DNA of 41,723 bases from an uncultured Clostridia bacterium (GCA_947628385.1 CANQZS010000001.1:1-41723); one strand, 5' to 3'; shown: positions 1-29,648, counted from the first letter of the stretch. Numbers and translations: made by a program. The notes: generated from the sequence alone by a model not told the origin.

Positions 1-1041
1 ACCGTGGTAGCCACAGGAACATACATAATTTCTGTCTTTTGCATGGTTGAATTTGCCGCATATAGGGCAGCATTGACTTGTAAAGGCGGGGTTTACGTAC
101 TCTACACTTATCCCTACTAACGCTGCCTTGTACTCAATATATTGAGCCAGACGGTAAAAACTCCAATTAGAAAGACTACGATTGTTTTTACGACTTGTTC
201 TTGTCTCCTTGCGCACATTGGCTAACGCTTCAAGCCTAATAGTACCAATGCTATTATCAATAGCAAAATTGACTATTTGACGACTGAGTTTATGGTCGAT
301 GTCTTGCATAATACGATGTTCTTTATTGCCCATTTTACGGACTGCATTAAGTTTCTTACGCTTGCCGAGTTTCTTCCGCTTGGATGCAAAACGGCGGCGT
401 ATATACTTATTCTTACGTCCGTTACCTACAAATTTAACTTTGCCGGTATCGGTAACGCAGACGGCAGGACACTTAATGCCAAGGTCTACGCCCATTACAC
501 CGGTGTTGTTAGATTGTGTGGTTTCCTGTTCGATAGCTATTTGAGCAATATATTTACCGTTTTTGGTGGTAATACGCAGTGTACCGAGTTTATGTGTAGA
601 TAATTTATCATACACGTCTGCCGGTATGAGAGCATTAACATTGATACGGCAAAATTCTCCTTCTATAAGGACAGGGAAATTTACTGCTGCATTTGTGACT
701 TTATACCCTTGGTTGTTCCATATAGCCACAGGCTTCCTAAGTATAGGAACAACGACAGGCTTTACCTCTCTATCAGGGTATTTTGCTTTAACCCATTCTG
801 CCTTTTTAACGTCTTTTGCATATTTACGGAACACGCTTATTGCATCGCGAATAGCTTGACATCTTAAATTAGACGGCAAGGGTGCAATTATATCTTTGGA
901 AGTTAGCCTTAGAGCCTGATTTTCCGCCACGCACATAGCAACAATTTTATTTACTGTTGCAATATATTCTTTACACACAGCATCAATCAATGCTTTTTGT
1001 TCCGGTGTAGGCAACAGCTTGATTTTGACTGTTGTAGTCAT
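1..1041 (-). CDS. tnpB: TnpB (IS200/IS605-family OrfB) RNA-guided nuclease, C-terminus cut by window edge
   Basis: The ORF track misses this because it runs off the left edge; reading the minus strand from the ATG at 1041 gives 347 codons with no stop. A good Shine-Dalgarno (AGAAAGGAG) lies about 8 bases upstream. The N-terminus (KIKLLPTPEQKALID) is typical of TnpB. The first RuvC Asp is in GVDLGI (about residue 186) and the Glu in IRLEAL (about 271). A zinc-finger half CCPICGK followed by CSC is present, and the final DRDxNAA Asp would lie beyond the edge. TnpB is known as an omega-RNA-guided DNA endonuclease that helps IS605 elements persist. No Y1 transposase (tnpA) is visible in the window. 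It is a useful intact comparator for the degenerate homologue at 12153-13163. Confidence 0.9.
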   Translation of the reverse strand, partial: MTTTVKIKLLPTPEQKALIDAVCKEYIATVNKIVAMCVAENQALRLTSKDIIAPLPSNLRCQAIRDAISVFRKYAKDVKKAEWVKAKYPDREVKPVVVPILRKPVAIWNNQGYKVTNAAVNFPVLIEGEFCRINVNALIPADVYDKLSTHKLGTLRITTKNGKYIAQIAIEQETTQSNNTGVMGVDLGIKCPAVCVTDTGKVKFVGNGRKNKYIRRRFASKRKKLGKRKKLNAVRKMGNKEHRIMQDIDHKLSRQIVNFAIDNSIGTIRLEALANVRKETRTSRKNNRSLSNWSFYRLAQYIEYKAALVGISVEYVNPAFTSQCCPICGKFNHAKDRNYVCSCGYHG

Positions 1042-1130
1042 AATATATCATCTCCTTTCTAAAAATATTTATTTTGTGAATATATATATAAAGCGGCAGA
1101 CTAAAAACTTTAATCTGTCGCGAAAAACAT

Positions 1131-1222
1131 AAAAAAAAGAGGAAAAGCGTACACTTTTCCTCAAAAAATTATACTTCATATCTGTATAATTTTATTATAT
1201 CATAAATACTGATAGATGTCAA
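1131..1222 (-). promoter_or_regulatory. Leader L1: sigma-A promoter followed at once by an intrinsic terminator, upstream of tnpB
   Basis: On the minus strand TTGACA (1222-1217) and TATAAT (1199-1194) are separated by 17 bases. About 15 bases past the -10 comes ATATGAAG (ATG at 1179). Next is the hairpin GAGGAAAAG-loop-CTTTTCCTC (1162-1139) and a run of eight U (1138-1131). Transcription from this promoter should stop after about 55 nt unless antiterminated. Another inverted repeat around CAGA...TCTG lies at 1093-1120. Same architecture as leaders at 4117, 5541, 25012 and 29504. The hairpin may also end transcripts arriving from the SLH gene, which has no other clear terminator. Confidence 0.8.
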
Positions 1223-1250
1223 GCAGTTTTAGGCAACGAACCTGTATTGT

Positions 1251-2501
1251 TTAGCAATACGGAATCGCCATGATTGTACCGCTGTCAATCTTATCCTTTA
1301 AGCTCTGAAGCATCGGCAGGTAATGTGAATAATAGATGGGTTCACCTTCTATAGAAAGACGCGTACATGAGCCAGTTTCAACGACATCCTCTATGTTGGC
1401 AACAGTGTCACACAATTTATTATAATCGTTATCACTCCACCAACCTTCAGCCATCTCATAAGCTGTAATGTATTCAATTAAGAAATTCATCAATCCGTCA
1501 GGGCAATCTATTTCCCTCACATTATATATTGCAGAAGATTGAGAACCGTACAAGTCTCCATACCTTATGTTTCTCGCTTCATACTCTGTTTGCCTTAACG
1601 TCTCCCCCATCTCATTCTTGGCATCTACTATGTTGCGTCTCAATTCTTTATTTGTGAGCTTATTCATTATAGCAGACGCTTCGGCTCTCGTGAGATTGTC
1701 CTGCGGGTTAAACAGATAGCTTTCATCACCTTCTACTATTCCTGTGTAATACAGTGCAGCCACATCAGTACGGTAATCAGGCGAAACCCAACACCAGTCG
1801 GGGACAACCAACAAAGCACCCCAAAAAACATCAGTGTCGTTTATGGGATAGGAATTTAATTTCTCTCCCAATTCCGGCTCTGTAATAAACACTGCTCTTG
1901 TTATCAGTCGTGCGGCTTCTTCTCTTGTAATCGGTGTATCATTGAGTATATCGCGTTCTACACCTTGCATAGAATCTCCAAAATTCAGTTCTTCTCTGGG
2001 GTCAAACGCTTCTGATGATGTGCCGTCAGGATAATATGTTTTAGGGGCATATCCCTTTGGGAAAGCATTCGTATAATATCCCCTAATCTGTTCCGTATAC
2101 TCACCTGTCGTTCCTATTATGCCCAATTCCACCGCCTTGTTCAGGTACGGTTGCGCCCATGCCGTCCAGTGATTGCTCCAGTACCGTTCGTCCCCTTTAT
2201 CGTCCGTTACGTACTGCTCATAATCTTCACCTACCGGTTCTACTTCCTGTCCAAGCTTGTCACATACGTAGTTTATCACCGCCGTGGTGAACTCCTCATG
2301 CGTAATCATGCCGTCAGGACGGAATGAGCCGTCCGTATATCCCTTGAATATACCTTGCTCGGTCAGTGTATTTATGGTATCATACGCCCAATGCGTAGTA
2401 GGTACATCAGGGAACGTCTTTGCCGATGCAGCAAATCCGAAAGATGAAACTATCGCTGCCGACATTACAAGCGCGATTACTTTCTTTAACGTCCTTTTCA
2501 T
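1251..2501 (-). CDS. SLH-domain secreted surface protein
   Basis: 416 aa with a signal peptide (KK..IALVMSAAIVSSFGFAASA, cleavage near residue 27). Three S-layer homology repeats follow: about 29-75 (FPDVPTTHWAYDTINTLTEQ), about 105-205 (split by an insert, ending ITREEAARLITRAV) and about 220-285 (ending LTRAEASAIMNKL). SLH triplets anchor proteins non-covalently to pyruvylated wall polymers. The last 130 residues have no recognised fold. A perfect promoter (2552-2580) lies directly upstream. The gene diverges from a MerR-like regulator, so both may be controlled at the shared region. It ends next to leader L1. Surface location is inferred from the domains. Confidence 0.88.
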   Translation of the reverse strand: MKRTLKKVIALVMSAAIVSSFGFAASAKTFPDVPTTHWAYDTINTLTEQGIFKGYTDGSFRPDGMITHEEFTTAVINYVCDKLGQEVEPVGEDYEQYVTDDKGDERYWSNHWTAWAQPYLNKAVELGIIGTTGEYTEQIRGYYTNAFPKGYAPKTYYPDGTSSEAFDPREELNFGDSMQGVERDILNDTPITREEAARLITRAVFITEPELGEKLNSYPINDTDVFWGALLVVPDWCWVSPDYRTDVAALYYTGIVEGDESYLFNPQDNLTRAEASAIMNKLTNKELRRNIVDAKNEMGETLRQTEYEARNIRYGDLYGSQSSAIYNVREIDCPDGLMNFLIEYITAYEMAEGWWSDNDYNKLCDTVANIEDVVETGSCTRLSIEGEPIYYSHYLPMLQSLKDKIDSGTIMAIPYC

Positions 2502-2551
2502 TTTAATCAGTCCTTTCTTTAAGGTCGTTGTTCCTTTTATTCTGTAACCCT

Positions 2552-2580
2552 ATTATACCACATTTGGGGCGATTTGTCAA
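2552..2580 (-). promoter_or_regulatory. Sigma-A promoter of the SLH gene
   Basis: Minus strand TTGACA (2580-2575), 17-base spacer, TATAAT (2557-2552). Start site expected near 2545, giving a leader of about 45 nt to the ATG at 2501. It lies back to back with the plus-strand promoter at 2609-2637, only 28 bases between the two -35 boxes. Confidence 0.85.
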
Positions 2581-2608
2581 GAGGTATTTTATTTTTTTTA
2601 GATTTTTC

Positions 2609-2637
2609 TTGACATTTTATTAAAATTGTGATATAAT
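2609..2637 (+). promoter_or_regulatory. Sigma-A promoter of the MerR-like gene
   Basis: TTGACA (2609-2614), 17-base spacer, TATAAT (2632-2637), both consensus. It is divergent from the SLH promoter, and the ATG of the regulator follows about 36 bases later. Autoregulation by the MerR-like product is plausible but no clear dyad was identified. Confidence 0.85.
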
Positions 2638-2672
2638 AAGGCAAATAAAATATAAAACATGAAAGGGTGAGA

Positions 2673-2987
2673 ATGATGTTCTATTCCATAGGTGCGTTTG
2701 CAAAGGAACTTGGTGTGACACCGCAAGCATTAAGACACTGGGAAAAAATAGGCAAATTGGTTCCGCACCATAGAACGCCGGGTGGACAGCGAGTATATTC
2801 ACAGGAACAGGTCGTGGAAGTCCTCGGGTTTTTGCCTGACAGGGAGATTACGATAAAATTCACAAATGGCAAGTTGAAAAAAGGCACTTTTTCAGATTTG
2901 ACTATAAATGAACTCGACCAAATTATCCGCCTTGCGGCACAAACGCGGCGTGACCTCATACAAAAGGGCGCAACGGTAGAGGAATAA
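2673..2987 (+). CDS. Small MerR-type HTH DNA-binding protein
   Basis: About 104 aa. The N-terminal half is a winged MerR helix-turn-helix (FYSIGAFAKELGVTPQALRH..., then RTPGGQRVYS). The RTPGGQR-Y signature resembles the DNA-binding domain of IS607-type serine recombinases and of excisionase-like MerR proteins, but no recombinase or effector domain follows. The C-terminal part is short and charged. The track starts at GTG 2667; I prefer ATG 2673 (or 2676), which stands 6-9 bases after GAAAGG. It could be a local regulator of the SLH gene or an excisionase-like accessory factor; the sequence does not decide. Confidence 0.82.
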   Translation: MMFYSIGAFAKELGVTPQALRHWEKIGKLVPHHRTPGGQRVYSQEQVVEVLGFLPDREITIKFTNGKLKKGTFSDLTINELDQIIRLAAQTRRDLIQKGATVEE

Positions 2988-2998
2988 ATAGCACAAAC

Positions 2999-3015
2999 AA
3001 GGTCGGAGCGACCTT
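2999..3015 (+). terminator. Hairpin after the MerR-like gene
   Basis: AAGGTCG-gag-CGACCTT, a 7-bp stem 11 bases after the stop codon. The following sequence is T-poor, so it may work together with the stronger hairpin at 3059. Confidence 0.45.
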
Positions 3016-3052
3016 TATAAAATATCGACTCACAAAAGCAAAAAACATAACA

Positions 3053-3086
3053 CAAAAAAAGAAGGTCAAACGACCTTCTTTTCTCT
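3053..3086. terminator. Bidirectional intrinsic terminator
   Basis: AAGAAGGTC-AAAC-GACCTTCTT (3059-3080), with A7 on the left and a T-rich run on the right, so it can end both the plus-strand MerR transcript and the minus-strand Rpn-family transcript. The same stem and loop recur at 4221-4244 and nearly so at 25296-25316. Confidence 0.85.
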
Positions 3087-3092
3087 TTTTTG

Positions 3093-4046
3093 TTATGCAG
3101 TTGCCAATTCCCTTACTGTATCTTCCGATAAATTCGTACTTTGAGCTATTTGCGCTATTGTAAGAGAACCAAGCTTTATCAAATTTCTTGCTGTTTCAAT
3201 GTTAGCCTGTGTTACTCCTTGTGCGATGCCTTGCGCCACTCCTTTTTCGAGACCTTTCTCGTAATATCCTTCACCAATGTTGCACATTGTATTCGCCTCC
3301 CTTTCCAAATTGGTTGACATTTTAACACCGAAATCCTCTTTGAGAATTTGCTTTTTCTTATTATGTTCTATTTCTATTGAAAACAGCACATCTAAGAACC
3401 GCAGCATCTCATCCTTTGCTTTCTCGTCATCTCCCAACCGTATCATGACGAGATGCAGCAAATCATAGTTTTGAGGACTTTCCTTTAACACTCCCGTTGA
3501 GTCCTCACCTTTGATATAATAGTGTGTTACCGTGTTCATTTCCTCTTTTGTCGAGTTCATGCAAATCCAGATTGAATAGACCTTTTTTATTTTGTCGTAA
3601 TCTGAATGCTCGAACTCTGTACCCTTTTGGGCGGAAATTAGCCGACAACAGTAGTATATGCCACGTTTAACCAAAGAATACCCGGGATTGCTTTTCTTTT
3701 GTGCCTCGACGTTAATAATCAGTTCTATATAACCATTATCACTTGGAGCTTTAGCTTTGAAACGTACGTCATAAATTATCATGCCCTCTGTGATGGTCTT
3801 ATCTTCGTTGGATAAGCCGTATATGTTTGATGTATCGGTATGTACTCCTACGTCACCAATGCCCGGTTCATCCTCGATGTAGCTGATTATTTCCTCAATA
3901 GTGCAATCCTTGTACTCAGATACACAGCCACGTAAAATATGAGCCAATACCGTTTTGTCGGCTAAAACACGTTTTGCAGCTCTGTCTATCTGTGTAAACC
4001 CATCAGACACATCTATTGAGTTTGCCAAGTTTGTCTTTTCGTCCAT
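3093..4046 (-). CDS. Rpn-family PD-(D/E)XK nuclease / putative transposase
   Basis: 317 aa. The layout is that of the Rpn / PD-(D/E)XK transposase family common in gut Firmicutes: an N-terminal 'KRVLADKTVLAHILRG' stretch, then the nuclease core with the Asp in IIYDVRF and the E-x-Q-K motif in IINVEAQKK (residues about 90-115). A glycine-rich repeat follows (GVAQGIAQGVTQ, about 270-282), and the C-terminus is a predicted HTH (IAQIAQSTNLSEDTVREL). Family members are linked to DNA cleavage and recombination or to phage defence; no specific role can be read here. It has its own promoter (4067-4095) and a strong SD (GGAGGAG). Confidence 0.85.
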   Translation of the reverse strand: MDEKTNLANSIDVSDGFTQIDRAAKRVLADKTVLAHILRGCVSEYKDCTIEEIISYIEDEPGIGDVGVHTDTSNIYGLSNEDKTITEGMIIYDVRFKAKAPSDNGYIELIINVEAQKKSNPGYSLVKRGIYYCCRLISAQKGTEFEHSDYDKIKKVYSIWICMNSTKEEMNTVTHYYIKGEDSTGVLKESPQNYDLLHLVMIRLGDDEKAKDEMLRFLDVLFSIEIEHNKKKQILKEDFGVKMSTNLEREANTMCNIGEGYYEKGLEKGVAQGIAQGVTQANIETARNLIKLGSLTIAQIAQSTNLSEDTVRELATA

Positions 4047-4066
4047 AAATTGTTCTCCTCCTTCAC

Positions 4067-4095
4067 ATTATAATATAAAATTCTTTATTTTGCAA
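4067..4095 (-). promoter_or_regulatory. Second promoter, proximal to the Rpn-family gene
   Basis: Minus strand TTGCAA (4095-4090), 17-base spacer, TATAAT (4072-4067), placing the start about 14 bases before the ATG. It lies downstream of the L2 terminator, so this gene need not depend on leader L2. That leaves the L2 transcript as a possible free short RNA. Confidence 0.65.
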
Positions 4096-4116
4096 TAGAT
4101 TTATAAACTTTTCATC

Positions 4117-4204
4117 AAAAAAGAGGAAAAGAATACACTTTTCCTCTTAAAATAAGCTTCATATCTATTTAAGTTAATTATACCACAAATTACGCTAAAG
4201 TCAA
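4117..4204 (-). promoter_or_regulatory. Leader L2: promoter plus immediate terminator upstream of the Rpn-family gene
   Basis: Minus strand TTGACT (4204-4199), 16-base spacer, TATAAT (4182-4177), then ATATGAAG (ATG at 4162). A perfect 11-bp hairpin AAGAGGAAAAG/CTTTTCCTCTT (4148-4121) follows with a U run. A short frame from ATGAAG reads through the hairpin (MKLILRGKVYSFPLF) but has no SD. Best-preserved member of the five-copy leader family. Confidence 0.8.
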
Positions 4205-4220
4205 GCTTTTAAGCACAAAA

Positions 4221-4244
4221 GAAGAAGGTCAAACGACCTTCTTC
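4221..4244 (-). terminator. Intrinsic terminator of the membrane-anchored protein gene
   Basis: GAAGAAGGTC-AAAC-GACCTTCTTC, a perfect 10-bp stem 10 bases after the stop codon of the minus-strand gene, followed on that strand by TTTTGTG. Same core as the terminator at 3053. Confidence 0.8.
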
Positions 4245-4253
4245 TCTTGTTCT

Positions 4254-5504
4254 TCACTGTTCAGCTTCAGCGGCTTCTTCATCCCCCGAATACCCCTCTT
4301 GATAACGTTCAATCGGTTCTTTTGTGAGGTTCGTATAGTTATCCGCCGTATTTTTGGTTGTGAAATCCATACCCACAAAGGCAAGCTCGTTGTCCATGTA
4401 TTGAGATATGTTTTCTACGTTGAAGTAATACGTATACGCTCCGACATTTGGGTTGATGGAGTTGATTGTCACCGCCCATAAGGGACTCGGGAAGCAATCT
4501 GCAACCGACTTTACATCATGCGCGTTTGTCAGATATATCTTTTGTGTCGGTTGTACGGCAAGCTCAACGAATGTGTTGAGTTCCATTGGCTCGTCATTCG
4601 TGCCAAATTCGCCCGAATCACGGATTTCCTTTGCTTGTGCGATTAGCTTATCGCTTACAGCCTTAAAATCCACATTTTCGTATGGAGTCAGAGACAACAT
4701 CTCAAATCCCGCTCCTTCATTGCCCTGTGCCTTTAACCGTTCCTCCTGACGCTTAAATCCCTCGTTTATATCGTCAACCACTTCTTGTGTTGAACCGCTG
4801 TTATTCCACCGTTCGCGTAATTCATCTTCCGGCATTAACGATATATCGTTGTTATACAGCTTCTTGAAGCTAAACTTATCACCTTCAAGAGATATAACCA
4901 AAGTGTATGAACCCAATACATTATGTGTGTCCATCCTTATAGCCGTTATCTTTACGTTCATCTCCGGCACGGGCGGCGGTCCAATAGGAAGCTTAAACGC
5001 TATACCGAAGTTCTCGTTATCGGTATATTCCGCTGTTTTAAGCCTGTCATAGGTTTGAGATATAAAGACATTGTTGCCTTCTACGTTTTCAATGTCCGTA
5101 TATTCGCTATCCGAAGCAAGGAACAGGGAATTATTACTGCGATAGTTTATATAATAACCCACCTTGTAATCATTGCCGGCATTGGAATACTGCGGCGCGA
5201 ATATCAGTCCGTCGAAGTCAACACCTTCAACGCCTATGGACAACGTATTACCCTGTTTATCCTGTGCCGATAATACCTTGTCGTTCAAGTAATTTGACGC
5301 GTTATACGTCGGCATCGGTTCAGCATAGTTTGAATTGGTAGTGTCTGTTATAGGTGTTTGGTCGGATTGGTAAGGGTTGTCAGGGATATTCGACTGATTA
5401 CCGTTATTGCTTCTTTTACTCAGAACCAACCCGAATATTATTATCCCCGCTATTACGATTGCCGCAACAACTACAACTATAACCTTTTTCTTATTCTCGT
5501 TCAT
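4254..5504 (-). CDS. Membrane-anchored protein of unknown function
   Basis: 416 aa from the ATG at 5504, chosen because AAAGGAG precedes it; the track's extra 24 N-terminal residues come from the leader and terminator. An N-terminal membrane helix (KKVIVVVVAAIVIAGIIIFG, about 6-26) is followed by a Ser/Asn/Thr/Pro-rich linker (30-70). The extracellular region of about 340 residues is predicted to be rich in beta strands. No catalytic motif is recognised. The C-terminus is acidic (GDEEAAEAEQ). It is transcribed from leader L3. Surface display is inferred from the helix orientation (Lys-rich inside). Could be a solute-binding or adhesion-like protein, but nothing in the sequence proves it. Confidence 0.75.
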   Translation of the reverse strand: MNENKKKVIVVVVAAIVIAGIIIFGLVLSKRSNNGNQSNIPDNPYQSDQTPITDTTNSNYAEPMPTYNASNYLNDKVLSAQDKQGNTLSIGVEGVDFDGLIFAPQYSNAGNDYKVGYYINYRSNNSLFLASDSEYTDIENVEGNNVFISQTYDRLKTAEYTDNENFGIAFKLPIGPPPVPEMNVKITAIRMDTHNVLGSYTLVISLEGDKFSFKKLYNNDISLMPEDELRERWNNSGSTQEVVDDINEGFKRQEERLKAQGNEGAGFEMLSLTPYENVDFKAVSDKLIAQAKEIRDSGEFGTNDEPMELNTFVELAVQPTQKIYLTNAHDVKSVADCFPSPLWAVTINSINPNVGAYTYYFNVENISQYMDNELAFVGMDFTTKNTADNYTNLTKEPIERYQEGYSGDEEAAEAEQ

Positions 5505-5540
5505 TTTTATATTCTCCTTTCGGCTGATTTTTTGATACAA

Positions 5541-5628
5541 AAAAAGAGAAAAATTTACGCACTTTTCCCTTAACATAAATCTTCATATCCGATAATAAGA
5601 TTTTATCATAAATAAAAACTTTTGTCAA
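5541..5628 (-). promoter_or_regulatory. Leader L3: promoter plus hairpin upstream of the membrane-anchored protein gene
   Basis: Minus strand TTGACA (5628-5623), 17-base spacer, TAAAAT (5605-5600), then ATATGAAG (ATG at 5586). An imperfect G-U containing stem GGGAAAA/TTTTCTC follows with a U run (5545-5541). A short ORF begins at ATGAAG and reads through the hairpin into the SD of the main gene, ending just past its ATG (track ORF 5727..5491 contains it). No second promoter fits between hairpin and gene. Confidence 0.72.
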
Positions 5629-6511: not shown

Positions 6512-6904
6512 TTAGTTCTCCTTCCCTATATGCAGTGTTTCTTTTAGCATATTAATAATATTTTCCCTCTCACTCTTACATAATAGTATAGCATAATCTA
6601 CATAACTCTGCAATTCTAAAACGGCTTTTTTATATTGCCCTTTCTGTATATACAATCGCATTTTCCCCAAATAGTATAATGGAGTCAGAGCGTTTACATC
6701 TGCTTGCCCGAAACCAATCGGAACAGTTCTCAATACATGGTAGAAGTCTACCAAAAGCTGTCTTGCTTCAAGCTCCGTACTGTTATCGAAATCAAAATTA
6801 TCTGTTATAGATAATAACGGCTGTGCAAGCTTTTTGTATATGAGGTATATATTATTTTTCTTATCTATGTATTTTTGCCCGTCATAAATACCTTTCCATC
6901 TCAT
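6512..6904 (-). CDS. Hypothetical protein with TPR-like helices
   Basis: 130 aa from ATG 6904 (AAGGAG 10 bases upstream); the track's TTG at 6913 sits too close to the SD. Mostly alpha-helical; the segment PLYYLGKMRLYIQKGQYKKA and the next VLELQSYVDYAILLCK resemble a helix-turn-helix pair of the TPR kind, suggesting a protein-binding role. Family not recognised. It is followed immediately by the gene at 6510 (GTG one base beyond its stop). Confidence 0.68.
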   Translation of the reverse strand: MRWKGIYDGQKYIDKKNNIYLIYKKLAQPLLSITDNFDFDNSTELEARQLLVDFYHVLRTVPIGFGQADVNALTPLYYLGKMRLYIQKGQYKKAVLELQSYVDYAILLCKSERENIINMLKETLHIGKEN

Positions 6905-15020: not shown

Positions 15021-17015
15021 CTATTCATCGGCGAATGTTATCTCGTTATTTGAAAGCGGTTCATCCGCCCAATACTCTGCGAAATCCGACATATCAAGCT
15101 CAATATCCGCGCCTTCCGGTATCTCCTTTTTTAAGGGCGGCGGTTCATCTTTTGGCTTGAACCTGCTCATAACCGCTGAAAAGATACCGTTTTGCTCTGA
15201 TGTATCATCATCGTCATCATTTTCAGGTCTGTTCCCGTACTCTTGCTGTTTCAGGTAGCTTTCTAGATACATTCTGTCCTGTTCCTCGTATCTCTTTCTG
15301 CCTTCCGTATCGGTTATGGACGGTCTTTCGGTTATAGGCACGTCACGGAACTTGTTAGCTTCGGGATGCTGTGAGAAGTCATACTTGTACGCTTCCATGA
15401 CGTTCTTGCCACGGAATATTATAAGCGACCTGTCCAATGGGAAACGAAGTATCTCGTCAGGCGTATATATCTTGCGTTTACCGTCACCGCTGCTGTGTTT
15501 ATGACCTATACTGATTAAAGGTTCTATCTTTTCATGCTGTACCGTTCCTACCTTGACCGTTGTCTCTCCGGCACGGTCAGAGATGAATTTTGCTGTTATG
15601 GGGTCATTGCAGCCTAAAAGCAAGTGCGTGTCACAGTTACTTAGGATGGTTTGCCATTTGCCGTTAGGATACCGTTCTTCAAGCTGTGTTATGTTCTGGA
15701 ATATAACCGATATGTTAATGTCACGGCTTCTTACCGTTGCTATTTTCTTTTCAAAATCCGCGATTGTTCCTATATTCGGAAACTCATCAAGAAGATAGTT
15801 TATCGGTACAGGGCATTTGTTCCCGTGCGTATCAGCATAGTCTACTTGGTCTATAAACGCGAACGAGAAGAATAGCGTAGATAGGAAGTTTAACGCCGAA
15901 TGTTGGTCGGACATTATACAGAAATACGCACAAGGCTTTTTAGCCGGAAGCGTCAGGTCAATATCGTCCTTTGCGGTAATTCTCTTGATAATATCGGCTT
16001 GGAACACCTGTAATCTGTTCGACAAGCCGGTTATAATATTGCCGCGCATGTTATCGGAACCTTGCTTAAATGTCATGTACGGACCGACACATAATTGCTC
16101 ATCTTGTGCTAAACTCATGCTGTCAAACATGGTATCAAGATATTTTTCGCCGAGCGGATTTTGAATAAGGTCATACGCGTCGCCTATAGACTGCTTGCCT
16201 AATGTTTTATAGTCATGTCCGCGTTCTACTCGAAGCATAAGAGCCTTTAACAGTGACATGGCGGCATTATCCCATACGTCGCCTTTACCCGTTCCTGTGT
16301 TCTGGATAACAACAGACGCGAATATCTGTGCGCGTATCTCGTCGCCGCGTAATTCTTTAAGACAGTCCCAACCATCGGATTTATCGGGATGAACTAAGTC
16401 AAAAACACGTACAATATATCCGTTATCTTTCAAATATTGAGCCGTTGATTCGTAAAGCTCGCCTTTCGGATCGGTAACAATTACAGACTCACGGCGTTTA
16501 ACTGTTTGTATAATGAAAGGGCGAGCATAACCTCGTGATTTACCGCTTCCGCTGCATCCAAATACGGCTACGTGCTTATTCATTCGGCTTTTCATGTCTG
16601 TGTTTATAAGCTTCTTACCGCTTTTGTCCAACTGCCCCAATATTGTTCCTTCCGCTTTCTGAGGGGTATTGATTTTTGCATATCCGTCTATATCCGAAGA
16701 ATCCAGTTTACCCGCCGTTCCATATACACCTGAGTCGGAATACTTGAAATTGCGCTCGTCAAAAGTAAACAGGTCAAAATTATTTTTCTTTGCAACCAAT
16801 ACAATACCGCCTATCATTAACAGGAAGATAATTACAGCCATACTGAAGGAGAACCCTGTTTGCGGCATATCACGTATTAGTGTAATGGGGTTAAATGACA
16901 TTGATTTCCCTGCCAATACATGCCTGAATATCATAGCAAGGTATATGGATATAACGAACATAATACCTAACGCTTTTAATATGGTCTTTTTCTTCTTTTT
17001 CAATAATTCAAGCAT
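15021..17015 (-). CDS. virD4: VirD4/TraG-type type IV coupling ATPase
   Basis: 664 aa. Two N-terminal membrane helices (about 13-34 and 57-75). Then the cytoplasmic ATPase with Walker A GCSGSGKS (153-160), VTDPKGELYE and Walker B NYLLDEFPNIG (406-416), plus VIFQNITQLEERYP and the RYP/ILSNCDT region of the family. The acidic C-terminal tail is variable. It couples the relaxosome to the conjugation channel at the inner membrane. The length suits Gram-positive TcpA/VirD4 proteins with a VirD4-like all-alpha domain. It is the last gene of the transfer run; a strong SD (GGAGAGGAGG) and a stable intercistronic hairpin precede it. The relaxase it should serve is not in the window. Confidence 0.94.
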   Translation of the reverse strand: MLELLKKKKKTILKALGIMFVISIYLAMIFRHVLAGKSMSFNPITLIRDMPQTGFSFSMAVIIFLLMIGGIVLVAKKNNFDLFTFDERNFKYSDSGVYGTAGKLDSSDIDGYAKINTPQKAEGTILGQLDKSGKKLINTDMKSRMNKHVAVFGCSGSGKSRGYARPFIIQTVKRRESVIVTDPKGELYESTAQYLKDNGYIVRVFDLVHPDKSDGWDCLKELRGDEIRAQIFASVVIQNTGTGKGDVWDNAAMSLLKALMLRVERGHDYKTLGKQSIGDAYDLIQNPLGEKYLDTMFDSMSLAQDEQLCVGPYMTFKQGSDNMRGNIITGLSNRLQVFQADIIKRITAKDDIDLTLPAKKPCAYFCIMSDQHSALNFLSTLFFSFAFIDQVDYADTHGNKCPVPINYLLDEFPNIGTIADFEKKIATVRSRDINISVIFQNITQLEERYPNGKWQTILSNCDTHLLLGCNDPITAKFISDRAGETTVKVGTVQHEKIEPLISIGHKHSSGDGKRKIYTPDEILRFPLDRSLIIFRGKNVMEAYKYDFSQHPEANKFRDVPITERPSITDTEGRKRYEEQDRMYLESYLKQQEYGNRPENDDDDDTSEQNGIFSAVMSRFKPKDEPPPLKKEIPEGADIELDMSDFAEYWADEPLSNNEITFADE

Positions 17016-23103: not shown

Positions 23104-23157
23104 GAAAAAAGACAATAAGGGCAGTCCTCCCACGAATGAGAGAACTACCCCCTGTTG
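23104..23157 (-). terminator. Partial terminator between the two pilin genes
   Basis: Minus strand GGGGGTAGTTCTC...GGAGGACTGCCC forms a stem with bulges, followed by TTATTGTCTTTTTT. An imperfect intrinsic terminator here would lower expression of the second pilin and everything after it relative to the first pilin. Confidence 0.6.
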
Positions 23158-23164
23158 TCAAAAA

Positions 23165-23642: not shown

Positions 23643-24056
23643 TCAATCTTCTTCACCTGCGAACCGCATCATACTCGCGAGCATTATATCGTCAGCCGTT
23701 TGTATATCGGTTGACGATGGGGGCAAAGTTTGTTCACTCATACTCTGTGTCTCAGGTGAATTGTTTTGTGTTATATGAGATAAAGAAGCCTGAGAAGGCG
23801 TTGGCATTACCGTCGTCGGTGTTTCCGCAACGGGGTTCTTCCTCGGTCTGCCCCTGCCTCTTTTCTCCGTAGTAAATGTTGTGGTCGGCGTTGATTTATT
23901 TTTCCTTTGCTCATACGCAACAACCGCTTGCGCGATATATATTGAACGCCGACGCTGCGGTAGATTGTTTAACACGTCCATAGTAAATTTCTGTTGATTG
24001 TCTATGGGGTTAAACACCAGTGAAAATCTGTTTATATGCTTTTTCACATATATCAC
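23643..24056 (-). CDS. ParR/StbB-like partner of ParM with AT-hook
   Basis: 137 aa. The GTG at 24056 overlaps the parM stop (GTGA); an in-frame GTG at 24047 is an alternative. Residues 1-55 look like a small DNA-binding domain (FTMDVLNNLPQRRRSIYIAQ, then AVVAYEQRKN), the place where ParR proteins carry a ribbon-helix-helix. Next comes a classical AT-hook, RGRGRPRKNP (about 66-75), and a long Thr/Ser/Pro/Gln linker ending in a hydrophobic IMLASMMRFAGEED, which could be the filament-binding tail. ParR adaptors bind the centromere and cap ParM filaments. The AT-hook is unusual for them. Confidence 0.72.
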   Translation of the reverse strand: MIYVKKHINRFSLVFNPIDNQQKFTMDVLNNLPQRRRSIYIAQAVVAYEQRKNKSTPTTTFTTEKRGRGRPRKNPVAETPTTVMPTPSQASLSHITQNNSPETQSMSEQTLPPSSTDIQTADDIMLASMMRFAGEED

Positions 24057-24982
24057 CGCCTATTACGAATCGCATTAAGCAAGGCTTCATAACCTTGCGC
24101 GTTCGCGTGAACATTGTTTATGAAATACGGGTTTGAAATTCCGTCAGCGCGTTCTATCCACGGCTTAAACCGTTCACTGCCGCCGCCTACGAAAATGCCT
24201 TTTGAAAAAACAAGGTCAATACCGTATTCCGTTAATTTGCGAATCAAATCCGCTATATATAACTCCGCTTCCTGATTGATAACAGGAAGTATCGGGGTTT
24301 TCTCTGATAGCTCCGTGTTTGTCTTTATAACCGTGTCAATTTGGTCTTCGTTTGGAGCGTTTCCGTATTTCTCACGTACCGCCCATGCAATTTTGTTATA
24401 AAGATGAATTAACCCTATATCCAAAGACTGACAAAATTCGGGGTCAATAACGCCTCTGTTAAGCGAAATTATGTCTGTTGTATATCCGCCGATGTCGATT
24501 ATGTAAGACCGGTCAAACTTGCTTATATCACGGAAATCCATGAATATAGCCGCATAACCTTGTGAAAAGACCGTAACATTATCAATCTGTAGTTGATACT
24601 GCTTGTTGTTATATGAAAAACTGATAATGCCGCGATTGCTGAAATACTGCTTGAATTTATCTTTAAGCCGCAGCAGATGTGACGGCGGCAACCCCACACC
24701 AAGCGAGATATGTACCGTTCCGTTTGTATCTGCCTTCCGATAATCAAGCTCTTTCGCTATGGCAAACAGAGTAAGTATGAAATACTCGTCCGTCTGTGTT
24801 TTATCCTGTAAGTACGAAACACGCTTTTGCGAAAGCATATAGTATTTGTTGTTGTACTCCATTACGCCGTGATTGAACGGCATCCGGTCATTTGACTGTT
24901 TCAGTCCCGCAACAAAGATTTGCGAGGCGGTCTTTATACATCTGTTTCCTGTGTCTACTCCGATAATTAACTGTTTCTCCAT
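24053..24982 (-). CDS. parM: ParM/StbA-like actin-type segregation ATPase
   Basis: 309 aa. Phosphate-1 loop at the N-terminus (IIGVDTGNRCIKTA), the second phosphate motif YIIDIGGYTTDIIS (about 160-173) and the adenosine loop FVGGGSERF (about 270). That is the actin/Hsp70 fold of plasmid ParM/Alp proteins, and the length is in range. Polymers push sister copies apart before division. Translationally coupled to the AT-hook adaptor, and the transfer genes follow on the same strand, so leader L4 (25012-25264) may control both segregation and conjugation. SD AGAGG at a normal distance. Confidence 0.9.
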   Translation of the reverse strand: MEKQLIIGVDTGNRCIKTASQIFVAGLKQSNDRMPFNHGVMEYNNKYYMLSQKRVSYLQDKTQTDEYFILTLFAIAKELDYRKADTNGTVHISLGVGLPPSHLLRLKDKFKQYFSNRGIISFSYNNKQYQLQIDNVTVFSQGYAAIFMDFRDISKFDRSYIIDIGGYTTDIISLNRGVIDPEFCQSLDIGLIHLYNKIAWAVREKYGNAPNEDQIDTVIKTNTELSEKTPILPVINQEAELYIADLIRKLTEYGIDLVFSKGIFVGGGSERFKPWIERADGISNPYFINNVHANAQGYEALLNAIRNRR

Positions 24983-25011: not shown

Positions 25012-25264
25012 ATAAAAAAAGGGGCAAAAAGTTACTTTGAATAACTTTTTGCCCCTTCTTTGACAAAGAAAAAAGGAGTAACCGTATACTTTAATACAGT
25101 TACTCCGCTTATTTTCTTTATTAAAAATAAAGCGTTTAGGTCATAAACATACTATACTTATAATTAGGTACAATATCCCTGACCTTTTCCTTCATATCGT
25201 CGTGCGAGAAAGCCGTAAGACTTTTTCACACTACTATTATAACGTATTAAAAATATTATGTCAA
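25012..25264 (-). promoter_or_regulatory. Leader L4 of the parM-transfer operon: promoter, leader ORF, two tandem terminators
   Basis: Minus strand TTGACA (25264-25259), 17 bases, TATAAT (25241-25236). ATATGAAG lies at about 40 nt into the RNA. Terminator 1: GGAGTAAC/GTTACTCC (25106-25075) plus a U run. Terminator 2: a perfect 14-bp stem GGGGCAAAAAGTTA/TAACTTTTTGCCCC (25055-25021) plus nine U. Between terminator 2 and the parM ATG there is no promoter. Some antitermination or readthrough is therefore needed to express parM. Confidence 0.82.
25136..25195 (-). CDS. Possible leader peptide upstream of parM (19 aa)
   Basis: ATGAAGGAAAAG... to TAA encodes MKEKVRDIVPNYKYSMFMT. The start is the conserved ATGAAG of the leader family. 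No clear SD lies in front, so translation is uncertain. If translated it would end 30 nt before terminator 1, a geometry that allows ribosome-controlled attenuation. Confidence 0.35.
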   Translation of the reverse strand: MKEKVRDIVPNYKYSMFMT

Positions 25265-28604: not shown

Positions 28605-29462
28605 TTAAGTACGGTTGTTTTTCATAGCAAGCCGTTCTTCTTCGCGTCTTTGCAAACCCTGCTGAACAAGAGGAATACACGTGGTATTCTCCCAGATTTC
28701 GATGTATCTGGTAACACTGTGCATCATGCGGAACATATCCTCATCACTGACGTTGATAGCCGCTTCCGTTACGACGTTAAACTTTTTGGAGTCGTATGCC
28801 GTAGCTCCGTTCTGCTGCTCTTTGACAGCGGCAATACCATTGGTAATTTTGATGTACCACGGATAGTTGCTGACCTGTCCGTCACTGCGTATTGGCGTGT
28901 GGGTTATGCTTAATTTTGTCACAGGCGCAGTCCCCATTGTTCTGTTTATTTGATAAACATTAACTCTGTCCTGCGTATGTGTAAAATCAGGCTGCCCCGC
29001 CTCTGACACTTTGGAGTTGAGAACTTCCTGAAATACCTGCTTGTACTCCTGCCCTACCTGCAAAATGTTGTCGGCTGTAACGCCTTTTTCGGATGTAGCA
29101 GCCTTATACAGATTCTGCAGGTTCTTATAGGTGCCGTTAAGCATCTTAACAACTCTCTCCGACAAGACATAACCCGACTTCGTAGGCTCGGATTTAGAGA
29201 TAGTCTGCTTCGCAGCTTTATACAGCCGATAAATCGTGTCAATGCTAAGATTAGCCTTCGCAGTAACACTTTTATCGCCGGTTCCGTTGGAATAGTCGCA
29301 GATATGACACAAGATAGTGCTTTTGGGTGCATGATGTCCGCCTCCGCTGCCGTGAAGATTTGCGTAGTCTTCAATGTTCGCGGGAATTAGGTTGTCGCAA
29401 AAGTCAATGACTTTGTTTTTGCCGTTTGTTTTTGTGATGTTTGTACTGACAAAATTTGCCAT
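28605..29462 (-). CDS. Hypothetical protein, partner of the annealase
   Basis: 285 aa, first gene after leader L5, SD GGAGG. Residues 40-60 contain a His-rich GSGGGHHAP and CHIC, which might bind metal. Two helical regions follow (residues 75-145, including TIYRLYKAAKQTISKS), and the C-terminal half is mixed (YPWYIKITNGIAAVKEQQNG). No known nuclease or recombinase motif. Context suggests DNA recombination or replication. Confidence 0.7.
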   Translation of the reverse strand: MANFVSTNITKTNGKNKVIDFCDNLIPANIEDYANLHGSGGGHHAPKSTILCHICDYSNGTGDKSVTAKANLSIDTIYRLYKAAKQTISKSEPTKSGYVLSERVVKMLNGTYKNLQNLYKAATSEKGVTADNILQVGQEYKQVFQEVLNSKVSEAGQPDFTHTQDRVNVYQINRTMGTAPVTKLSITHTPIRSDGQVSNYPWYIKITNGIAAVKEQQNGATAYDSKKFNVVTEAAINVSDEDMFRMMHSVTRYIEIWENTTCIPLVQQGLQRREEERLAMKNNRT

Positions 29463-29503: not shown

Positions 29504-29648
29504 AAAAAAAGACAACGAAAATATATATAATTCGCTGTCTTTTAACTTGGGGAAATAAAAAAAGAGAGAAAGTATACAACTTTCCCTCTTAAAAATAAAG
29601 CTTCATATCTTTATGATTTTATTATATCACTTTTTCAGTATTTGTCAA
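29504..29648 (-). promoter_or_regulatory. Leader L5: promoter, MKLYF mini-ORF, two tandem terminators
   Basis: Minus strand TTGACA (29648-29643), 16 bases, TATAAT (29626-29621); ATATGAAG with a 5-codon frame (MKLYF, 29606-29589). Terminator 1: GAGGGAAAG/CTTTCTCTC (29588-29563) plus seven U. Terminator 2: GACAGCGAA/TTCGTTGTC (29539-29511) plus seven U. The gene at 29462 follows with no clear second promoter. Confidence 0.8.

Follow-up and report, generated by a model that had tools for sequence, protein, structure and literature searches.

The stretch analysed here, hereafter the window (41,723 nucleotides, GCA_947628385.1 CANQZS010000001.1:1-41723), is the first 41.7 kb of the 110-kb contig C1 of a metagenome-assembled genome (MAG) from an uncultured Clostridia bacterium, and it carries five similar 5' leader units (A to E, all on the minus strand) placed before unrelated genes. 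The operons of this contig encode a TraG/VirD4 coupling protein, a CHAP hydrolase, a ParM-like actin and a RecD2-like helicase, and further a DNA polymerase III beta clamp and two methylases. A preliminary description of this DNA had reported the five units, in which a consensus promoter is followed by a short conserved box and by an immediate intrinsic terminator; all five are present and belong to a larger family, with 17 members on the contig, which we examine here as possible leaders for processive antitermination.

The common architecture is a consensus sigma-A promoter, the box [GT]A[TC]ATGAAG and an intrinsic terminator (T1), usually accompanied by a second one (T2). Unit A, for instance, reads TTGACA-N17-TATAAT-N11-GATATGAAG-11 nt-GAGGAAAAGTGTACGCTTTTCCTC-T8, then a second hairpin, then the gene. 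Units A, B, C and E (promoter starts at 1222, 4204, 5628 and 29648) share this layout, with 13-14 nt from the -10 element to the AUG of the box and a T1 ending about 40-52 nt past that AUG, while unit D (25264) is a variant with its box 40 nt past the -10 element, behind a 5' hairpin, and with its terminators further downstream; the earlier statement that the box occupies a fixed place is thus correct for four of the five units. The second hairpin, which had not been singled out before, occurs in three of the five window units (1121-1093, 29543-29507 and 25061-25015). Over our whole catalogue of 49 units from five genomes it was detected in 36 (three further genomes contribute at least one leader each).

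The pattern ATATGAAG occurs eight times in the window against 1.85 expected, a count reached in none of 100 shuffles, and GATATGAAG occurs 48 times in the whole genome, against six for the reversed pattern. Sixteen of these copies are on C1; 15 share one strand and are all preceded by a consensus promoter, and the only exact 9-mer outside the leaders of C1 lies within a gene, on the other strand. Off C1, and with the exception of two copies on contig C4, the matches are mostly chance occurrences in coding sequence. An Infernal covariance model built from the family (spanning promoter, box and T1) recovered 18 leaders in this genome, including two in which the box is the variant GGTATGAAG; with the parM leader (unit D) the total becomes 19, of which 17 are on C1 and two on C4. 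The same model gave a single marginal match across 198 related genomes, and among 391 genomes of the class leaders were found in this genome and two others only. Further carriers came from rabbit-gut and other metagenomes, through exact-pattern and model searches; the 37 exact-pattern matches were mostly due to chance, with the leader layout only at loci of four genomes, and the viral contigs searched gave chance-level matches only. Some genomes hold just one or two leaders, adjoining genes otherwise known from the element. In the few carriers, leaders are situated on the element itself or on islands made up of its genes. No gathering-level Rfam match was obtained over the window, and the sub-threshold hits on units D and E belong to unrelated types. 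The leader family is real and conserved, and its kind can be recognised; unusual are the smallness of its signal and the number of its copies.

A second contig, G3C5 (76 kb), is collinear with C1 and belongs to a relative whose proteins are about 60% identical; a leader precedes at least nine operons that are orthologous between the two. Because of the T4SS (type IV secretion system) genes, and because C1, G3C5 and a third contig, G2C4, run into host-type genes beyond their cvpA end, we read the carrier from its gene content as an integrated conjugative element, whose integrase, attachment sites and ends were not identified. Near the cvpA end lies a transfer-messenger RNA (tmRNA) gene (Rfam, 115 bits; L012:2239-2655, minus strand, contig 103238-103654), with an odd predicted tag of 30 residues ending in VKMAA and two tRNA genes nearby; it may belong to the element or to the host. 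The region C1:87275-105503 holds several paralogues, on this one element, starting with F-x-x-GD-x-[VI]-RVR (SH3/KOW-like).

The box and the terminators occur together. C1 has 20 consensus promoters; a box follows within 60 nt at 17 of them, always with a predicted terminator. Three promoters are boxless, and two of these have no terminator at all: they form the divergent pair, devoid of any leader, between an SLH-domain gene and a MerR-like regulator gene (window 2502-2672). The third (84795, plus strand) belongs to gene 102, where one hairpin touches the ribosome-binding site (RBS). G4C54 contains genes homologous to the SLH/MerR-like pair, and the promoter region between them is similar.

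Across the 49 units the box has G or T at -3, A at -2 (47/49) and T or C at -1, followed by ATGAAG, and in the 294 positions of this core there is one change (an ATGGAG). Most units (38 of 49) have the AUG 13-14 nt past the -10 element; this distance shrinks to 8-10 nt in the four leaders of cvpA type and grows to 40 nt in the two of parM, where the extra stretch folds as a hairpin whose sequence in C1 (GTGTGAAAAAGTCTTACGGCTTTCTCGCAC) is unrelated to that in G3C5 (GAAATATAGATTAAACGTTTATATTTC). Since the parM boxes sit so far downstream, behind unrelated 5' hairpins, the box is probably read as RNA, and this geometry is the strongest sign of it. The promoter spacers contain nothing conserved beyond an extended -10, and the box is neither palindromic nor -10-like; from its end to the T1 stem there are about 8-15 nt. 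A conserved first hairpin around the box was considered and rejected, being present in some copies and absent from the consensus.

At least one terminator is predicted in 48 of the 49 units, so that, as in antitermination leaders generally, a promoter is followed by terminators, with a conserved cis signal (49 units) upstream of them. In the standard units of C1, T1 begins 56-60 nt and T2 97-106 nt past the promoter start. The T1 stem has nine pairs, with 94% of cells paired, and all nine show two-sided compensatory changes, well above slid controls, in an alignment that was fitted to the model structure, which favours covariation. The sequence of T2 varies widely among units, which fits a generic bypass and not a terminator-specific one; in the majority of units the interval from T1 to T2 contains CAAGT or CAAGC (CAAGY).

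Hairpins with a U tract are also predicted inside operons. On C1 they abut the RBS of the next gene at 095/094, where the start codon is 23 nt away, and at 053/052, where it is 29 nt away, and G3C5 has the same arrangement at 023/024 and 061/062; at all four places the terminator touches the next RBS, leaving no room for a promoter, and the 053/052 hairpin region is kept in G3C5. A further one lies within the T4SS operon (Table 1), with no consensus promoter between it and the next start codon. If these internal hairpins halt transcription, the genes downstream need polymerases that ignore terminators.

Table 1. Features of the leader units, their genes and the other loci discussed, numbered from the first nucleotide of contig C1 (and of the window)
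Feature	Coordinates	Strand	Remarks
Unit A promoter	1194..1222	-	TTGACA-N17-TATAAT (12/12 consensus)
Unit A box	1174..1182	-	GATATGAAG
Unit A T1	1139..1162	-	GAGGAAAAGTGTACGCTTTTCCTC + T8
Unit A T2	1093..1121	-	GCGACAGATTAAAGTTTTTAGTCTGCCGC, short U tract; from sequence, missed by terminator scan
Gene behind unit A	1..1041	-	OrfB/TnpB-like (IS605 / Cas12f1-like TNB); extends past window edge
Unit B promoter	4177..4204	-	TTGACT-N16-TATAAT
Unit B box	4157..4165	-	GATATGAAG
Unit B T1	4121..4148	-	without T2
Gene behind unit B	3093..4046	-	PD-(D/E)XK (Rpn-type) nuclease family
Unit C promoter	5600..5628	-	TTGACA-N17-TAAAAT
Unit C box	5581..5589	-	GATATGAAG
Unit C T1	5544..5571	-	without T2
Gene behind unit C	4254..5504	-	membrane-anchored protein, without Pfam match
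Unit D promoter	25236..25264	-	TTGACA-N17-TATAAT
Unit D 5' hairpin	25202..25231	-	between box and start site; unrelated hairpin instead in G3C5 orthologue
Unit D box	25190..25198	-	GATATGAAG; AUG 40 nt from -10
Unit D T1	25075..25106	-
Unit D T2	25015..25061	-
Gene behind unit D	24053..24982	-	ParM-like actin; opens T4SS-bearing operon
Unit E promoter	29621..29648	-	TTGACA-N16-TATAAT
Unit E box	29601..29609	-	GATATGAAG
Unit E T1	29562..29590	-
Unit E T2	29507..29543	-	CCAAGTTA (box B) just before
Gene behind unit E	28605..29462	-	285-aa protein, function not assigned, conserved in relative
Control promoter, SLH gene	2552..2580	-	without box or terminator
Control promoter, MerR-like gene	2609..2637	+	without box or terminator
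TraG/VirD4 family coupling protein (T4SS)	15021-17015
Terminator-like hairpin within T4SS operon	23111..23159	-	-29.6 kcal/mol; 41 nt before next start codon
64-aa KOW-like protein gene	66904-67098
Gene 102	84940-85503	+	boxless promoter, single hairpin touching RBS

On two elements a TnpB-like gene (window 1-1041, and near 6540 of locus L154, the latter assigned from its sequence alone) immediately follows a complete leader, which gives the impression that a gene of transposon origin has taken the leader over.

Based on this anatomy, we consider the chances about even that the units serve as 5' leaders from which processive antitermination is set up on an integrated conjugative element. In such a mechanism, the sigma-A RNA polymerase would initiate at the strong promoter and the nascent RNA would expose the box (consensus GAUAUGAAG, core AUGAAG) a few nucleotides from its 5' end or, in parM, behind the 5' hairpin. 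The box would be recognised by a host Nus-type protein, by the RNA polymerase itself or by an element protein, and the polymerase so loaded would then resist T1, T2 and the operon-internal terminators, whereas a polymerase without the box, for example one reading through from host DNA, would be halted at T1 or T2. Loading may be either constitutive (providing insulation, as argued for canT of Tn916) or regulated. With such a leader heading nearly all operons of this mobile element of gut Clostridia, this suggests an element that is held off or insulated, transcribed only by polymerases made to ignore stop signals. Preservation of the leaders before orthologous operons in a relative of about 60% identity, together with their rarity among genomes, supports antitermination. 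A broader proposal, that the whole element of about 100 kb is switched in one step by one factor, through element-wide processive antitermination from a 9-nt 5'-proximal RNA box and without a NusG paralogue, is more tentative, and we hold it to be possible rather than probable.

Several observations weigh against processive antitermination. The search for the factor gave no confirmed protein, and leaders also occur in genomes with one or two copies, which need not encode an element factor; there the leaders may be remnants, or a host factor or the RNA alone may suffice. Additionally, known RNA antiterminators, canT among them, are far larger than the box, the strength of the terminators is a prediction, and units B and C have T1 only, so that a simpler single-terminator attenuator would explain both. 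Finally, leaders within one element are about as alike as orthologous leaders of different elements, so that the copies are not fully independent and may be homogenised.

The units could instead work by classical attenuation, with an RNA-binding protein or a small RNA on the box (perhaps also on CAAGY) blocking the adjacent terminator and leaving the polymerase unchanged. The short distance from the box to the T1 stem, which a bound protein could span to touch T1, the recurrence of CAAGY between the terminators and the two window units with T1 alone all speak for this explanation, which we nevertheless regard as unlikely, because a factor sitting on the box could not reach as far as T2 or the terminators within operons, which have no sequence in common; it is for this reason that we favour processive antitermination over control terminator by terminator. 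Moreover, no small RNA with the complement of the box (CTTCATATC) is evident on contig C1. Somewhat more doubtful is a passive role in attenuation and insulation, where a strong promoter with two terminators sets a low constant level and blocks read-through from the host, the box being a feature of the initial transcribed sequence or of RNA stability. The strong promoters and constant architecture found throughout agree with it, and integrated elements benefit from insulation, as Tn916 does (PMC11658703), but it leaves unexplained both the near-invariant AUGAAG core, moved behind a hairpin in parM, and the operon-internal terminators.

We find it improbable that the box is a DNA operator or another promoter-proximal double-stranded element (a repressor site, or a sigma-dependent pause as for lambda Q). 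The regular spacing in 38 of 49 units would suit such an element, but the box moves in the cvpA and parM leaders, has neither a palindrome nor a resemblance to a -10 element, and is accompanied by no conserved second site in the spacers. Least probable of all is control of T1 through translation of an ATGAAG mini-ORF without Shine-Dalgarno, a possibility raised in the preliminary description: although the AUG is near the predicted 5' end in most units and a stop follows within five codons in all four cvpA-type leaders, an early in-frame stop occurs in 22 of 47 units against 15 and 14 in the other frames, the frames are 2 to 41 codons long with no conserved peptide, AAG never becomes AAA, and the bases preceding the AUG are conserved as well.

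Regarding the factor, the preliminary description proposed one element-encoded regulator. A single antitermination or RNA-binding factor is consistent with the one conserved box, the unrelated genes downstream, the co-occurrence of box and terminators, the RNA geometry of parM and the internal terminators; encoding by the element found no such support, since the element contigs have no match to the NGN domain (PF02357) of NusG/LoaP-type proteins and the best candidate gene went undetected in several carriers. Genomes G001 to G004 have one NusG each, located off the element, and none at all was found in the MAG of the window, which is incomplete. The best candidate, gene 102, has an attractive position and leader in three elements: its layout is repeated in G3C5, and G1C30 has a syntenic gene that is arranged likewise. 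The third copy is, however, only marginally similar (global Z of 3.6, with null local and profile tests), no recognisable copy was found in five other carrier genomes, searches in phages, plasmids and viral contigs gave no match, and the structure model is poor. A 64-aa KOW-like protein, 97% identical between two elements and with a predicted Tudor/KOW barrel structure, is a weak lead, with no match in G001 and G004 and a chance-level one in G002. The region of its gene (C1:66867-67125, L010) has 92% DNA identity to the relative, against about 74% around it, which may reflect recent exchange or extra constraint. Proteins with the RNA polymerase alpha C-terminal domain (alpha-CTD) were likewise rejected, being on two elements and absent from two others; one of them (C1:96979-97947, L011) fuses the alpha-CTD to a deoxynucleotide monophosphate kinase-like domain, and the G1 element has a separate alpha-CTD protein (G1C30:7453-8121).

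Known systems resemble the units in part. Phage lambda Q acts with pR' and tR', a constitutive promoter followed by an early terminator, the late genes being silent until antitermination, and it requires a promoter DNA site and a sigma-dependent pause. Here, in contrast, there is no conserved site between the -35 and -10 elements and no -10-like pause site, and the position of the box is variable. HK022 put and EAR are larger structured RNAs, whereas our leaders have no Rfam match. As with the NusG paralogues LoaP and RfaH, a leader signal may recruit a factor for terminator read-through, although no NGN-domain protein is encoded on the element contigs. Like HK022 put and the EAR of eps operons (cited in PMC8955417), the units would use an RNA element near the 5' end to modify the polymerase. 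In Tn916, canT is a cis RNA antiterminator working with terminators T1-T3 on a conjugative element (PMC11658703), and both cases combine such an element with a strong promoter, protective terminators and a cis-acting RNA permitting passage. However, canT exists as one site, which spans 340-450 nt and is predicted to fold in a complex way, whereas here as many as 17 promoters have a 9-nt box and each leader comes with its own T1 and T2; an RNA of canT size would have no room ahead of T1, given an AUG 13-14 nt past the -10 element (38/49) and a T1 usually ending within 50 nt of it. The conAn system of pLS20 is bipartite, with protein ConAn1 and RNA conAn2, at the start of one operon (PMC8955417); it shares with the present case a Gram-positive conjugative element, processive antitermination (predicted here) and terminators within operons, but no counterpart of ConAn1 or conAn2 was identified.

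The antitermination systems of Gram-positive conjugative elements described so far act at one long operon. If the present interpretation is true, a whole element would be wired through about 17 near-identical leaders, providing an all-or-nothing gate as well as insulation from host read-through, and the box would constitute a very small and portable RNA signal for a terminator-ignoring RNA polymerase, with many natural copies available to dissect.

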